Positions 4,705-41,418 of a stretch of 41,418 nucleotides of DNA are shown here, one piece after another. The notes under the pieces were generated by a model, which was not told the origin of the DNA, searched no databases, and worked only from the letters and a program-made list of their open reading frames with translations. A program made the position numbers and the translations under genes. How positions within the stretch are numbered: the first letter of the stretch is position 1; the number at the start of each line of letters is the position of its first letter. This stretch comes from a virus. Where the stretch lies: the IMG/VR virus record IMGVR_UViG_3300046385_000014, positions 1-41,418 of that record; one strand, given 5' to 3'.

Positions 4705-5163
4705 TTAATTATCCAATTGTGCAACCATAAGCCATTCGGCTACGTCAAAAGACGGGCACGCCTTAGCCACCTTTGGAAAATCACGGTGGCCCTGAATCTT
4801 TGCCTTCGGGTATTTCACCTTCAGTTTCTGCAGTAATGTCTTCAGCGAATCGAACTGCTCTGGCGTAAAGTTGTTGACTGCCTTCTTGATGTCGTTGGCA
4901 TCAACGCCGCCCACCATGCAGATACCCACGGAGACTGAGTTCCAGTTCTCTACGTGTGCGCCGATGGTTGAATCGTCACGGCCCTCTTCCACTGTCCCAT
5001 CACGCTTGATGACGTAGTGGTAGCCGATGCACTTCCAACCCTTGGCGCGGTGCCACTTGTCGATGTCTGCAGCACCAATGTTTTGTTTGGGTCCAGTTGC
5101 CGAGCAATGCACGGCGATGTAATCCGTACTGGCACGGACCTTTGTGTTAGCTTTGTAGACCAT
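4705..5163 (-). CDS. N-acetylmuramoyl-L-alanine amidase / lysozyme (T7 gp3.5 type)
   Basis: A 152-aa zinc amidase that cleaves the bond between muramic acid and the stem peptide. The T7 lysozyme zinc ligands H17, H122 and C130 correspond to H19 (AVHCSAT), H126 (GHRDF) and C136 (KACPSF). The catalytic Y46 and K128 correspond to Y48 and K134. In T7 the same protein also inhibits the phage RNA polymerase, which may hold here. There is no signal peptide, so export needs a holin. The start overlaps the endonuclease I gene by 17 bases. The last codons coincide with a putative phage promoter. Confidence 0.96.
   Translation of the reverse strand: MVYKANTKVRASTDYIAVHCSATGPKQNIGAADIDKWHRAKGWKCIGYHYVIKRDGTVEEGRDDSTIGAHVENWNSVSVGICMVGGVDANDIKKAVNNFTPEQFDSLKTLLQKLKVKYPKAKIQGHRDFPKVAKACPSFDVAEWLMVAQLDN
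4711..4726 (-). promoter_or_regulatory. Putative phage RNA polymerase promoter (copy upstream of primase-helicase)
   Basis: The minus strand reads GGTTGCACAATTGGAT, identical to the copy before the RNA polymerase gene. It sits in the final codons of the amidase gene, which it makes end in MVAQLDN, and 18 bases upstream of the primase-helicase start. The repeated motif and its position before a gene block support a promoter; the exact start site (predicted at the GG) is inference. Confidence 0.7.
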
Positions 5164-6519: not shown

Positions 6520-6535
6520 TTCCAATTGTGCAACC
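6520..6535 (-). promoter_or_regulatory. Putative phage RNA polymerase promoter (start of replication genes)
   Basis: The minus strand reads GGTTGCACAATTGGAA, between the RNA polymerase stop (6555) and the next gene start (6494). The five bases upstream (CAAT before GGTTGC) are shared with the 12548 copy. Transcription would run into the small genes, SSB, endonuclease I and amidase. Confidence 0.72.
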
Positions 6536-6554
6536 ATTGCCATTTGGTAACCAA

Positions 6555-9068
6555 TTAAGCAAAACAATAACGTGACTCAACGATCTGGCTCAGATCCAGA
6601 GTCCCCTTCAGAGGCAACGGTGAGAGCTTCTCAATGTTCTTCACCGAGAGCTGCTGCACGATCTCCTCCCGGAATGACTCCAGGACTTCGACCTCGCCAT
6701 ACATCTCGCAGAACGCCTCACGCACCGTGTGGTAGAGCTGCTCGACATCCCCTGCAGTGGTCCCGAAAGAGTCGTGGATCATCGCAAAGTTATCAATGCC
6801 AGCCTGCTTGGCGCGGACCACCGTCAGCATCATGTGGGCTGCGTCACACGAGTGGACAAAGTTAGGGGCGATGCCTGAGGACTGCTTGCGGCGGTCCAGG
6901 CTGTCCTTCTCTGCGTACATCGTGAGGTACACCAGCTTGCCGTTGATGGCTGTCTTCACCTTGCGCTTCTCCAGATTGGCGTAGGCCTGCATCACGGGGA
7001 AACCGACAGGTGTCGTCCAGCGGACTGGGAGTTCTTCAGATGCAGCCAGAGAGGCGGCACCTTGGAGCCACTTCATGGCCTCACCAGCTTTCACCAGCAC
7101 CTTGTTCACAGCCACCCAGATGGCCTTCGCCATGTACTGGGCACCCTGATAGCCGTCACCTTGGAAGGGGAAGGGTTTGCCAGAGTTCTTGGCGGGACGC
7201 AGGATGTCCTCCATGAGCTGCTCCTTGAAGCCATACTCCTTGGAGCCGTAGGCCAGCGTCATGACGGAACGCTTGGTCACCTTGCGGGTGATCCCAAACT
7301 CCTTCCACTGGGCAGCGATGGCCTTGGTGCCGTGCTTGACGTAGGCCACACCCTCGTCGGTGTGCTTCAGCTCGTCTTCGGTGCCGTTGACCATATCCTC
7401 GTCAATCTGCTCCATAACCTTGTTCGCCACGAGCTGGTAGACATCGGCTGGGAGGGCACGGGGCACGAGGTTGACTGCACCTCCGCCAACTTCATCACGA
7501 AGCATCGCTGAGAAGTGCTGAATTCCAGAACATGAACCGTCCATAGCCACGGGCAGTTTCGATACGAACGACTCACCATGTTCGCTGAAACCTGCCCACT
7601 CGAAACAAAATGCGAGGAACTGCCAAGGTTTGTCAATTTCCACCTCTCCCACTGAATTGCACCATCCACGGTTGTTGTAAGGATCAGCGGCGATTGCGAT
7701 GATTTGTTCTTCATTGTCCTGTACCCAGTTAACACGGTCTTCAAAGCTGGCCTTGTCGAAGCCAGCCACGTTGGCACCGTGGATTGCCAACCATTTCCAA
7801 CCCTCAGCGCCCAAGGGTTTGCCATTGGCGAATCGCAGGAGGGCCTTCTGAAAGTCTGACCCCTGAGGATTCAGATGGGGGACCGCATAGATGCGACCAC
7901 GGAAGTCCAACTGGTACGGGAAGTAGATCTTGCGGAACTTCTCGTAGCGTCGAGCAATGCCCAACCCCATGTTGAACCCAATGCGGTGCCCGAGGATCGA
8001 CAGGTTCGCCATGTGGATCTTGGCGGCATCGATTCGGTACTGCTTCTTGGCTTCCTCGTTGGTGTCGATGTCCTCAGGCTTCTTGGGGATCGGCAGACCA
8101 TCACGAGGAGGCAAGCCAGCGATCTCAGAGCCGGTGTCCCACAAGGTGGTCATCACCTCAAACACCTGAGAATTGATCTGCCATGCTGTCTGCTGGAGGG
8201 CGTTCACCGCCTCATAGACGATGGGCATGTCGGTGTGCTTCAGCTCATCCATGTAGGCCTTGTTCTTGGACTTCACCATGCGGATGGGCTTGATGTTGGA
8301 CGAGATGTAGCCACCGTTGAACGGGGTGGTCCAATCACGGGGACGGACAACCATCGGCTCATAGACAGGGCGGAGGAACTGAGTGACCTCGTTCTTCTTT
8401 TCGATCCACTCCAGAGTCTCAGGCAGGGCCTTCACGTATTTGATGGACTGGTCCTTATCGACCTTCTGGTGAGTGATCTCGACCAGGCCAATGGATTGAA
8501 TGCAAAGGTCAAGCATCTTGATGCCGACATGTAGGCGGTCTGTACGGACCCAGCGCTTCCAGCCATCCTCCAGGCGGTCAGCCTGACGGACTGCATAGAT
8601 GTGGCGGTAGTGACCCGAGGTGCGCTTCTTGGCCCCGATCAGGATCTTCTCGTACATCTTGCGCTCGTTCTCACGGATGGCGGCATAGCGGATCTCGTCC
8701 TCAATGGCGGTCCCGATAGCCACCCCAACGAACTGCAGAGTCCTGAGGCTGGAGATACCCGACATCACAGCCTTGAGGGTCAGGAAGGCCAGCATGTGGC
8801 TGTCCACGTCCTTGACCTTGGGATAGGTCGCGGAGAAGCGAGAGGCGGCACCCTTGGAGCTGGCTTCACGCCACTCATCGATGGCCTCTGCAAGCTTGGC
8901 AAGGCGGTGCGACAGGATGGTGGTGCCGTAGGAGGTGGACTCCTCACGACCAGCCTGAATGGCCTTTGAGACATCTCGCAGATACTTCTCAGCACCCCGT
9001 TGGGTCATGCCCTCTTCGAGAGCGAGCTGGACGGACATCAAGTCCTCTTCAAGATTAACATTTTGCAT
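6555..9068 (-). CDS. Single-subunit DNA-dependent RNA polymerase (T7 gp1 type)
   Basis: An 837-aa T7-family RNA polymerase (T7: 883 aa). Clear motifs are YQLDFRGRIYAV (385-396), motif A LPVAMDGSCSGIQHF with catalytic D510, motif B RKVTKRSVMTLAYGS with K599 and Y607 (T7 K631 and Y639, same spacing), and motif C HDSFG with D766. The protein ends CFA, matching the FA foot of T7 polymerase. The likely promoter-recognition loop lies between about residues 700 and 735 (after TTPVGFPV) and differs from T7, in line with a different promoter. The ATG follows AGGAAC. A phage-type promoter motif 112 bases upstream suggests self-activation. Confidence 0.98.
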   Translation of the reverse strand: MQNVNLEEDLMSVQLALEEGMTQRGAEKYLRDVSKAIQAGREESTSYGTTILSHRLAKLAEAIDEWREASSKGAASRFSATYPKVKDVDSHMLAFLTLKAVMSGISSLRTLQFVGVAIGTAIEDEIRYAAIRENERKMYEKILIGAKKRTSGHYRHIYAVRQADRLEDGWKRWVRTDRLHVGIKMLDLCIQSIGLVEITHQKVDKDQSIKYVKALPETLEWIEKKNEVTQFLRPVYEPMVVRPRDWTTPFNGGYISSNIKPIRMVKSKNKAYMDELKHTDMPIVYEAVNALQQTAWQINSQVFEVMTTLWDTGSEIAGLPPRDGLPIPKKPEDIDTNEEAKKQYRIDAAKIHMANLSILGHRIGFNMGLGIARRYEKFRKIYFPYQLDFRGRIYAVPHLNPQGSDFQKALLRFANGKPLGAEGWKWLAIHGANVAGFDKASFEDRVNWVQDNEEQIIAIAADPYNNRGWCNSVGEVEIDKPWQFLAFCFEWAGFSEHGESFVSKLPVAMDGSCSGIQHFSAMLRDEVGGGAVNLVPRALPADVYQLVANKVMEQIDEDMVNGTEDELKHTDEGVAYVKHGTKAIAAQWKEFGITRKVTKRSVMTLAYGSKEYGFKEQLMEDILRPAKNSGKPFPFQGDGYQGAQYMAKAIWVAVNKVLVKAGEAMKWLQGAASLAASEELPVRWTTPVGFPVMQAYANLEKRKVKTAINGKLVYLTMYAEKDSLDRRKQSSGIAPNFVHSCDAAHMMLTVVRAKQAGIDNFAMIHDSFGTTAGDVEQLYHTVREAFCEMYGEVEVLESFREEIVQQLSVKNIEKLSPLPLKGTLDLSQIVESRYCFA

Positions 9069-9179
9069 TCTAATAGTTCCTCGTTTAGTGGTAACTCTAT
9101 GAGTAGTATACCTTAGTAAGAATGAGTAAGGTATATCCTAGAGATAGTCTTAGAGAGATCTCTATACTCTCTTTAGTCT
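9069..9179 (-). promoter_or_regulatory. Structured AT-rich leader of the RNA polymerase gene
   Basis: No gene fits here. The leader carries an inverted repeat with 9-bp arms TATACCTTA/TAAGGTATA (9107-9115 and 9127-9135, 11-base loop) and a palindrome AGAGATCTCT (9154-9163). The 11-mer GATAGTCTTAG (9143-9153) recurs at 14307-14317 in the putative end region. Hairpins of this kind in a T7-type leader could be RNase sites or translational control elements; no direct evidence distinguishes these. Confidence 0.45.
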
Positions 9180-9195
9180 ATCCAATTGTGCAACC
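9180..9195 (-). promoter_or_regulatory. Putative phage RNA polymerase promoter upstream of the polymerase gene itself
   Basis: The minus strand reads GGTTGCACAATTGGAT, identical over 16 bases to the copy before the primase-helicase. A hairpin ends exactly where the motif begins. It drives toward the RNA polymerase gene, implying positive autoregulation. Confidence 0.7.
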
Positions 9196-9212
9196 ATAGG
9201 GTTCCCCCTATG
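9195..9212 (-). terminator. Short hairpin directly upstream of the polymerase promoter
   Basis: CATAGGG (9195-9201) pairs perfectly with CCCTATG (9206-9212) around a four-base loop. It lacks a U tract, so it may pause or punctuate transcription rather than terminate strongly. It repeats the hairpin-then-promoter arrangement seen at 36.2 and 14.65 kb. Confidence 0.4.
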
Positions 9213-9340
9213 TTCTAGTTGCTTGTCAATGGTCAAGGGTTTGACACAGATTCTTGTCACATGTTGTCACTTCCTTTCCGGTGGGAAATGGTTTGTCTAT
9301 GGGCAATTGATTCCATACGGCAACGGTCTAGGTCAAACGA

Positions 9341-9373
9341 AAGAGAACCCCTTGGTTTACAAGGAGTTCTCTT
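9341..9373 (-). terminator. Strong hairpin terminator between integrase/attP and RNA polymerase
   Basis: A 14-bp stem (9341-9354 with 9360-9373) has one mismatch and a five-base loop GTTTA. On the minus strand the stem is followed by a T-rich CTTTCGTTT. It would isolate the regulator-integrase transcript from the polymerase gene; the stem is nearly symmetrical, so it may act in both directions. Confidence 0.7.
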
Positions 9374-9450: not shown

Positions 9451-9534
9451 TTTATACCTTGTGAAAAAACAAGGACTTAGCTTGACACAATCACTGAAAA
9501 CAATCGTTTTTGACGCAGCAATTTTAGCCCTGTG

Positions 9535-10578
9535 TCAACCGTTGACGACCTGCAACAGTGGCATGGACGATACTTGCTCCAGAGCCTTCTTGCCTTCCAG
9601 TAGACTATCGGGACGAAGGTGCCAGTAGCGCTGTGTGGTGACGATGGATGAGTGCCCCATCCACACCTGAACGACAGCCAGAGAGGTGTTCCGCTGCACC
9701 AAGCGAGACGCACAAGTGTGCCTCAAGGTGTGAACGAGGAACTGGTTGTCATCCTCCATGCCCATGGCCGTCTTGAGGTCCACCCATTGCTTCCTCAAGG
9801 TTGCCTTGGTGAGGGAGAAGATGTTCGCTCTGTTGGACCTGCGGGTCAGGATCTCAGCCACACGGTCAGTCGCAGGGACTGCCCTCGCCTTGTCGGTCTT
9901 GGTCTCTCCAGCGTGGAGGTGGACCATCCCGTTGACGAAGTCATTAGGACGAAGACCCAGCAGCTCACCCCGGCGAAACCCTGTGTCGATCCCCACCACG
10001 ATGAAGTCACGCAGCTCGTGCATCTCAAGGTGGGTGCAGAGGTTCAACATCTTGATCTCTTCGGCCTCACTGAACCACCGAAGGCGGTGGTTGCCGGGCT
10101 TCCTGCGGATCATCTTAGGCTTGCTATCGATCCAGCCCTTATCGAGGGCCACATCCAGCATCTGAGACAGGTGGGTGACCTTATGGTTCACCGTCTGACC
10201 TCCGTTGCCTTTCTCTTCCCACGCTTCAACAGCTTCGAGGATGTCCTCAAAGGTGATGTCCTTGAGAAGGGTCTGTCCGGGGATCTCTCGGAGCACCGCA
10301 CGACAGAAGATCCGGTGGGTGCCCTGTCCATCGGGTTTATGCGTGGAGTATTTAAGCCTCCACAAGAGGTCGTGAGCATCTTGGAGTGTGTAGCCCTTGG
10401 CTTCCCGTTTTGCAGGGCTTCCTGAGGCTATTAGAGAGCTTCCTGTGGCTTTGAACCGAAGCTTAGCTTCCAGCTCAGCAGTTTCTGCTTCCTCTAGGTC
10501 TTTGTAGCTTTGCCGAAAGCGGTTTTCGAGACTTCCGACCGAGACAACAAAACTATTACCTCGTTTAGTGATGGTCAT
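9535..10578 (-). CDS. Tyrosine recombinase integrase
   Basis: A 347-aa integrase. The C-terminal catalytic domain has TGFRRGELLGLR with R202, a candidate lysine near 228, HTLRH with H283 and R286, GHSS with H309, and the nucleophile Y318 in TTQRYWH. An N-terminal arm-binding region and a SAM-like core-binding domain (about 65-160) precede it. It would recombine the tRNA-Leu core at 9394-9450 with the host gene. Its ATG overlaps the stop of the regulator gene (ATGA), so both are made from one transcript. The length and full catalytic set indicate an active enzyme. Integrases at this position, before the RNA polymerase gene, are known from some T7-like phages such as P-SSP7. Confidence 0.97.
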   Translation of the reverse strand: MTITKRGNSFVVSVGSLENRFRQSYKDLEEAETAELEAKLRFKATGSSLIASGSPAKREAKGYTLQDAHDLLWRLKYSTHKPDGQGTHRIFCRAVLREIPGQTLLKDITFEDILEAVEAWEEKGNGGQTVNHKVTHLSQMLDVALDKGWIDSKPKMIRRKPGNHRLRWFSEAEEIKMLNLCTHLEMHELRDFIVVGIDTGFRRGELLGLRPNDFVNGMVHLHAGETKTDKARAVPATDRVAEILTRRSNRANIFSLTKATLRKQWVDLKTAMGMEDDNQFLVHTLRHTCASRLVQRNTSLAVVQVWMGHSSIVTTQRYWHLRPDSLLEGKKALEQVSSMPLLQVVNG

Positions 10579-10898
10579 ACTGGTTCTCCTAGCATCTTTT
10601 TCAAGGCGATCTTACCCTTAGTAGTGAGACGAATGATCTTCTTTCTCCTTTCCATCGGGTCTTCGTAAGACTCCACAAAGTTGAGACCTTCTTCCTTGTG
10701 GCGGTTCATCTTACCAAGAGAGCTAACGTAGCGACTCGCTGTAGCAAGTCCTATGTTGGCTTTCCTAGCGACATCTGTGAGGGAGCACCCCTCTTCTTCC
10801 TGAGCAATAAAGAACAAGCACAGGAGTTGTTGTAGTGACATGTCTGGATCGACCTTTTGTACTCCAGACATCAGGTCAATTGCCTGCTTTAGTTTCAT
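10575..10898 (-). CDS. MarR-like winged-helix transcriptional regulator (candidate repressor)
   Basis: A 107-aa protein with a winged-helix core: LQQLLCLFFIAQEEEG, then CSLTDVARKANIGLATASRYVSSLGKM as the helix-turn-helix, then a charged loop and the wing RRKKIIRLTTKGKIALKKML. This layout, including the closing LTTKG, is that of MarR-type regulators. It is translationally coupled to the integrase. Two perfect 15-bp palindromes lie upstream at 10929-10943 and 11019-11033, and a plus-strand gene diverges from it. Those neighbours suggest a role in controlling lysogeny, like a phage repressor, although classical phage repressors are usually of another HTH class. The binding sites are inferred. 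Confidence 0.85.
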   Translation of the reverse strand: MKLKQAIDLMSGVQKVDPDMSLQQLLCLFFIAQEEEGCSLTDVARKANIGLATASRYVSSLGKMNRHKEEGLNFVESYEDPMERRKKIIRLTTKGKIALKKMLGEPV

Positions 10899-10928: not shown

Positions 10929-10943
10929 GTGTGAGACTCACAC
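10929..10943. promoter_or_regulatory. Perfect 15-bp palindrome, candidate operator
   Basis: GTGTGAG-A-CTCACAC has two 7-bp arms around one base. It is 31 bases before the regulator start, placing it over that gene's own promoter or leader. It has the same size and odd centre as the palindrome at 11019-11033. Confidence 0.55.
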
Positions 10944-11018
10944 ATAGGGATTCCCCTGTCAACGACTGTTTCCAGTTGGCAACCTTTGATGCACCGCAAT
11001 CTCAACCTTAGCTGGGGT

Positions 11019-13473: not shown

Positions 13474-13532
13474 GTGCCTGCCCCTTTGAATGGTTGCGTT
13501 ATGGAAACAATTACCGAATGGAAACTGTCGTG

Positions 13533-14623: not shown

Positions 14624-14639
14624 TTCCAATTGGGCAACC
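14624..14639 (-). promoter_or_regulatory. Putative phage promoter after the large terminase (position of T7 phi-OR)
   Basis: The minus strand reads GGTTGCCCAATTGGAA, identical to the copy at 36.18 kb. It points into the gene-free end region, exactly where T7 has a promoter used for end-proximal replication or processing. A weak 66-aa frame covers it, but I judge that non-coding. Confidence 0.7.
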
Positions 14640-36181: not shown

Positions 36182-36197
36182 TTCCAATTGGGCAACC
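36182..36197 (-). promoter_or_regulatory. Putative phage promoter for the structural gene block
   Basis: The minus strand reads GGTTGCCCAATTGGAA. It starts nine bases after a perfect hairpin terminator and runs into the ribosome site of the next gene, so a transcript starting at the GG would have a leader of only about 10 bases. Confidence 0.75.
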
Positions 36198-41223: not shown

Positions 41224-41418
41224 TTAGAGTTCCAAAGGTTTTCGGTTTTGAATTGACTGAAAGTATTTGAGGAGATCAGGGTTATCCATGATAACGCCCA
41301 TCATGCCAGAGGCCATCCGTCGAACGATGACCTCCTCATCCTCACCGCCCATAGCGATGCTCATGCAGTACCAGACAGCGTGGAAGATCTCGTGCAGCAA
41401 TGTGTCTGCTTCTTCCAC
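41224..41418 (-). CDS. HExxH putative zinc metallopeptidase, 3' part (continues from base 280-1)
   Basis: Bases 41418-41292 repeat the left-end coding sequence, and 41291-41224 supply the last 22 codons, ending RKPLEL. Read as a circle, the gene runs from 280 down to 1 and then from 41291 to 41224, giving 115 aa. Treating this part alone as a 64-aa gene would be wrong, as it begins in mid-frame. See the 5' part for motif and role. Confidence 0.72.
   Translation of the reverse strand: MEEADTLLHEIFHAVWYCMSIAMGGEDEEVIVRRMASGMMGVIMDNPDLLKYFQSIQNRKPLEL
41292..41418. repeat. Terminal direct repeat, right copy (identical to 1-127)
   Basis: Exact copy of the first 127 bases. Removing one copy gives the 41,291-bp unit and restores the split gene without any frame change. 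Confidence 0.95.

Follow-up and report, generated by a model that had tools for sequence, protein, structure and literature searches.

A conserved, very probable autogenous promoter before the RNA polymerase gene of a temperate T7-like phage, with a plausible role in a lytic switch

How a T7-type RNA polymerase can be silent in a lysogen yet fully on during induction is the question raised by IMGVR_UViG_3300046385_000014, a 41,418-base virus record that was analysed at its full length (hereafter the window), and in which a tyrosine integrase gene lies directly upstream of the polymerase gene. The phage genes identified are all on the minus strand, with T7-like replication genes (SSB, endonuclease I, amidase, primase-helicase and DNA polymerase) and T7-like head and packaging genes (portal, scaffold and terminase) both arranged in T7 order. 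The ends of the window are identical over 127 bp (1-127 and 41292-41418), probably a k-mer overlap left by circular assembly and not genuine terminal repeats. The single-subunit RNA polymerase (837 aa, 6555-9068, minus strand) matched Pfam RNA_pol (6.5e-117), RPOL_N (1.4e-19) and phrog_414 (2.1e-284), whilst the integrase (9535-10578, minus strand) matched Pfam Phage_integrase (1.5e-20) and phrog_1 (1.1e-49). The start of the integrase gene is overlapped by 4 nt by the open-reading frame of a MarR-like winged-helix regulator (10575-10898, minus strand), the two forming one operon; the MarR assignment is weak, comprising a match to phrog_9665 (transcriptional regulator), weak MarR/IclR matches and a weak match to MarR structures. 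A probable host-type promoter of this operon (TTGACA, 17 nt, GAGTCT) is found at 10934-10962 on the minus strand, and most relatives carry a TTGAC-type -35 near position -65. A perfect palindrome, GTGTGAGACTCACAC (10929-10943), overlaps the presumed -10 of this promoter, and GAGTC/GACTC inverted repeats occur at the same promoter in some relatives. Read in the direction of transcription, the free genome thus has its early region first, then regulator and integrase, then attP and the terminator, and last the autopromoter with the polymerase.

A preliminary description of this DNA had reported a perfect motif copy 112 bases before the polymerase gene, and this was confirmed: GGTTGCACAATTGGAT is present at 9195-9180 on the minus strand, the polymerase ATG being at 9068. 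On the model of T7-type promoters, with transcription starting at the leading G of GGAT, +1 would fall at 9183 and the leader would be 115 nt long. An identical copy is present before the primase-helicase gene (4711-4726, minus strand), within a 20-mer, TATGGTTGCACAATTGGATA, that is shared exactly between 9179-9198 and 4710-4729; another, with one difference, is present directly 3' of the polymerase gene (6520-6535, minus strand). Two late-type promoters, both GGTTGCCCAATTGGAA and both detected as sequence matches on the minus strand, lie between the terminase and the early region (14624-14639) and before the structural genes (36182-36197). Sites with two or fewer mismatches to the motif numbered five; every one is on the coding (minus) strand, the plus strand has none, and 40 dinucleotide shuffles yielded none. 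The motif was also the biggest group of near-identical 16-mers on the minus strand (six sites), whilst four shuffles gave no cluster of at least four such 16-mers. The copies at 4711, 6520 and 9180 read GCACAATT and the late copies at 14624 and 36182 read GCCCAATT, possibly a class difference like that of T7 class II and III. The late-type promoter at 14624, 5.5 kb upstream, could also feed the polymerase gene with phage-polymerase transcripts. An inverted repeat directly upstream of the motif (CATAGGG...CCCTATG, inside 9180-9212) was dropped as a candidate element, relatives being without it.

The motif resembles T7-family promoters in form (CAC, a 4-nt box, GG), and nearly all the relatives compared have a motif of like shape 92-141 bases ahead of the polymerase gene, with outliers at 204 bases in L027 and 240 bases in L025. 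In the relatives it is usually repeated directly after the polymerase, and a third copy often follows 4-5 kb downstream; L013 and L014 have the upstream motif and no second close copy within the locus examined. Scans of the reverse strand of the relatives returned one weak match. The sequence of the motif varies between relatives and agrees within each of them, reading AGTCCTACAATTGGATA in L017, AGTCCGACA[A/C]TTGGATA in L021 and L022, ACTATTGCACAATTGGT in L025 (twice), GGGACCACATA[A/C]GGATA in L026 (three times) and AGGTTGCCCAAACGG in L027 (four times). Across 17 sequences, promoter distance was correlated with distance in the polymerase specificity loop when overall polymerase distance was controlled (partial r 0.39, permutation p 0.002). 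The promoters of Pseudomonas phage LUZ100 (OP329100) were mapped by transcriptomics and, in the excerpts of that report, are placed before the polymerase (phi1), after it (phi2 and phi3) and after the amidase (phi4) (PMC10134795); the three copies around the polymerase here, at 9180, 6520 and 4711, sit at the positions of phi1, phi2/phi3 and phi4, respectively. The proposal that the motif is the polymerase gene's own promoter is thus very probably correct, in that its layout behind a terminator is kept in relatives and matches that of LUZ100, where terminator T4 comes before phi1; the anatomy that a self-amplifying polymerase would need is well supported. The motif variants further supply candidate pairs of polymerase and promoter that differ in specificity.

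A self-promoter need not be a switch. It may be an ordinary middle promoter which, like T7 phi1.x, raises the polymerase and replication genes after a host-driven early phase. The two further copies that serve genes past the polymerase are in keeping with this, as is the early expression of both polymerase and MarR in the related temperate phage HTVC022P (PMC12753301). However, a middle promoter leaves unexplained the conserved terminator and the operator-like site that lie between attP and the promoter, and we consider it a doubtful account of the locus.

The terminator was described earlier as strong, at 9341-9373, and the hairpin is real and of the intrinsic type: a 14-pair stem with a 5-nt loop (9373-9341, minus strand) is followed by the T-rich tail TTTCGTTT. 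As the tail is present on the minus strand only, the terminator would act on transcripts heading for the polymerase. Its pairing is conserved by compensatory change, with 4 of 10 consensus pairs changed on both sides among 14 sequences, although L017 has only a weak hairpin at this position. Between the integrase and the terminator lies the 3' half of a tRNA-Leu gene, from anticodon loop to CCA (9451-9394, minus strand), which is the presumed attP core on the basis of its sequence and of the attL/attR repeats in relatives' prophages; the relatives carry tRNA-Leu 3' halves or whole copies at the equivalent place. A conserved sigma-70-like promoter between the attP core and the polymerase was not found, and the candidate sites in this interval were rejected, their number being about that expected by chance (6 vs. 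5.8). The hairpin begins 20 nt past the tRNA CCA end here and 17-25 nt past it across the clade, whatever its sequence, which would suit a terminator that merely completes the rebuilt tRNA gene after integration, supplying its 3' end and termination without any control of the polymerase. Against this, the terminator appears to span the sole path by which host-driven transcription could reach the polymerase, whether the genome is free or integrated, so an effect on the polymerase would be hard to avoid, and tRNA completion as the whole function seems rather unlikely.

The consequences of an attachment site at this position can be seen in integrated relatives. Seven relatives found in bacterial genomes have, less than 700 bases upstream of the polymerase, a tRNA gene in the same orientation: tRNA-Leu in Pseudomonas putida HAI-2, Polynucleobacter and Methylovorus, tRNA-Phe in Marinicella, tRNA-Ser in Caulobacter and Novosphingobium umbonatum, and tRNA-Pro in Novosphingobium lindaniclasticum. 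The polymerase lies 169-596 bp behind the tRNA in these integrated relatives, whilst in P. putida, Methylovorus, Marinicella and Polynucleobacter, whose polymerases are about 38-61% identical to that of this phage, an integrase is about 39-43 kb downstream of the polymerase, at the far end of the prophage. There the 3' end of the tRNA is repeated exactly, over 55, 60 and 56 bp in P. putida, Methylovorus and Marinicella, respectively. In the P. putida HAI-2 prophage (L049) tRNA-Leu is followed by the terminator, then by a promoter-like motif and the polymerase; among the other integrated relatives, no obvious terminator was seen behind the tRNA in L075, L102 and L106, and no recognisable phage promoter after the tRNA in L050 and L056. 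That this phage itself integrates into a tRNA gene is suggested by its attP-like half together with the junctions of these relatives at ~38-61% polymerase identity. The tRNA-Leu half had no host match among 299 genomes of one family, and a search of that family for closer prophages gave none beyond the Polynucleobacter prophage already known (54%), the others being more remote (38% at most). Integrated Rhizobium relatives are also known (PMC8631192).

This topology bears on the source of the first polymerase. The preliminary description had the terminator shield the polymerase from the integrase transcript, with a little polymerase arising from read-through. Such shielding can operate only while the genome is free, as a circle or concatemer, with attP between integrase and terminator, and read-through from the integrase can supply polymerase only in this state; it does not apply to the prophage, in which the integrase of relatives is at the far end and its read-through cannot reach the polymerase. 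The upstream neighbour in relatives' prophages is a host tRNA gene, so any read-through polymerase in a lysogen would have to come from the tRNA, and it is probably this transcript, not that of the integrase, which the terminator faces. With the relatives' prophages so arranged, read-through from the integrase is excluded as the origin of the first polymerase in lysogens. This arrangement also weighs on the model of the LUZ100 authors, who, in the excerpts of their paper, proposed an autopromoter, a leaky terminator, a MarR-like repressor and positive feedback (PMC10134795). In such a model, read-through from the integrase operon starts the polymerase, the promoter amplifies it and the repressor decides, the integration state being irrelevant. 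In the same excerpts LUZ100 reads cross terminator T4 and phi1 precedes the polymerase (PMC10134795), and the gene order here is that of LUZ100. The model is still valid for the free genome, but an operon about 39-43 kb away cannot feed the polymerase in integrated relatives, and we regard it as unlikely to be the full explanation.

The account given earlier also lacked a repressor, which is probably involved. A conserved palindrome, GTTNCCANNTGGNAAC, occurs at three places: ahead of the MarR-like gene, in the interval from terminator to autopromoter, and next to the phage promoter that follows. The first site, GTTGCCAACTGGAAAC (10968-10983, minus strand), precedes the -35 element of the promoter serving regulator and integrase, matches at 12 of 12 positions and is present in 13 of 14 genomes; the second, GTTGCCGTATGGAATC (9309-9324, minus strand), matches at 10 of 12 and is present in 11 of 14; the third, GTTACCAAATGGCAAT (6536-6551, minus strand), abuts the promoter copy 3' of the polymerase, matches at 11 of 12 and is present in 9-10 of 13. 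Their offsets are ~88 bases before the regulator, ~250 before the polymerase and 2517 past the polymerase start, whereas on average a fraction of 0.015 of genomes has a GTTNCCANNTGGNAAC site at any one offset. Shuffled palindromes matched a mean of 0.2-0.3 genomes, with single shuffles reaching 13, 5 and 10, the pattern having been defined on the same sequences on which it was scored; the high-scoring shuffles may be nearly the same pattern as GTTNCCANNTGGNAAC. On this conservation, GTTNCCANNTGGNAAC is probably a repressor operator, and the MarR-like protein its likely ligand. According to the excerpts of the LUZ100 paper, its authors anticipated, on the strength of earlier studies, MarR sites on either side of the polymerase promoter (PMC10134795). 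Tandem operator-like palindromes, GTTTCCATTCGGTAAT and GTTTCCATAACGCAAC, are found 17 bp apart at 13493-13525 (minus strand), beside a TTGACA of the early region, and several relatives have similar tandem pairs in their early regions. Repeats of GTGACAAC/TGTGTCA type lie on both sides of the tRNA-Leu core (9200-9300 and 9480-9540) and occur also in relatives; these are possibly integrase arm sites. The presence of operator-like and GTGACAAC repeats in the same intergenic region could suggest that the motif at 9195-9180 is itself an operator or arm site and not a promoter, but this is very improbable, because its versions covary with the specificity loop and its positions match the mapped LUZ100 promoters, and its CAC, 4-nt box and GG resemble T7-family promoters.

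We therefore favour, as somewhat likely, a joint reading in which an autopromoter loop is combined with a cut-off by integration at tRNA-Leu, a MarR-like repressor and a restart on excision. The T7-type polymerase of the phage would use the promoter at 9195-9180 and so sustain its own expression. While the genome is free, early and regulator-integrase transcripts made from host-driven promoters would cross attP and leak past the terminator, yielding the first polymerase, which the autopromoter would then amplify. Integration at the tRNA-Leu gene would open the circle between integrase and terminator, as the junctions of relatives indicate; the polymerase gene would then have a host tRNA gene upstream of it, with the terminator carried by the phage as insulation, and no conserved host promoter of its own, and the early and integrase promoters would shift to the far end of the prophage. 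Repressor bound to the three GTTNCCANNTGGNAAC sites would close the loop in lysogens, and excision would rejoin the polymerase with host-driven promoters, starting the loop. A stricter form, in which integration itself cuts the polymerase off from all host promoters except that of the insulated tRNA gene, and excision starts the loop, follows from the position of attP between the host-driven early and integrase promoters and the polymerase gene; it is possible, though we hold it only tentatively. If true, excision gating would be a topological lock on lysogeny in T7-like phages, with a logic comparable to integration-dependent immunity in mycobacteriophages. A lytic switch is plausible on this arrangement of sequence elements, and it may be bistable, as the preliminary description proposed.

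Parts of this arrangement recur in known phages. Escherichia phage T7, which is strictly lytic, shares the single-subunit polymerase and the form of promoter, with a GG start; to our knowledge it lacks an integrase and does not carry a T7 promoter immediately ahead of gene 1. LUZ100 has a MarR-like gene in an operon with an integrase, terminator T4, phi1 before the polymerase and further phage promoters past the polymerase and past the amidase, but its promoter is of GATTACCACACAGGTATGGA type, its polymerase is about 40% identical (many T7-like phages being at ~41%), and a complete tRNA-Leu lies upstream of its integrase. The excerpts of the LUZ100 paper report that stable lysogens were not obtained and do not discuss integration topology (PMC10134795). 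By polymerase identity the closest cultured phage is Bordetella phage vB_BbrP_BB8 (MK984681, Gyeongsanvirus; 65%), in which an integrase is likewise followed by the polymerase, and in which GGTTGCACATAAGGAT stands at -114 and recurs, nearly unchanged, past the polymerase gene; unlike this phage, BB8 has no visible tRNA-derived attP between integrase and polymerase, and no MarR-like match was found in it. Limnohabitans phage YIMV22061 (PQ492660; 54%) has MarR-like gene, integrase, tRNA-Leu and polymerase in the same order, but its tRNA-Leu is complete and in the opposite orientation. In the T7-like cyanophages P-SSP7 and S-TIP37, attP is likewise downstream of the integrase and matches a host tRNA-Leu, and both integrate without stable lysogeny, but the excerpted account does not describe a self-promoter before the polymerase (PMC8776855).

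We conclude from sequence comparison that the conserved site is real and very probably an autogenous promoter of a temperate T7-like phage, of a kind already described in LUZ100. New here are its conservation throughout the clade, where promoter and polymerase covary, a candidate operator, and the integration that would separate the polymerase from the integrase operon; the anatomy of one phage becomes a clade-wide pattern, with probable operator sites named. The separation of the polymerase from the integrase operon by integration was not found in the literature examined. The paper 'Sheep in wolves' clothing', reportedly by Boeckman et al. 2022 and probably the source of the LUZ100 paper for flanking MarR sites, may describe the topology or the operators.

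Finally, the 115-nt polymerase leader (9069-9183, minus strand) folds into hairpins, as do the leaders of most relatives, with folding z of about -1 to -5 relative to mononucleotide-shuffled sequences in this phage and its relatives; these hairpins possibly reflect RNase III processing.
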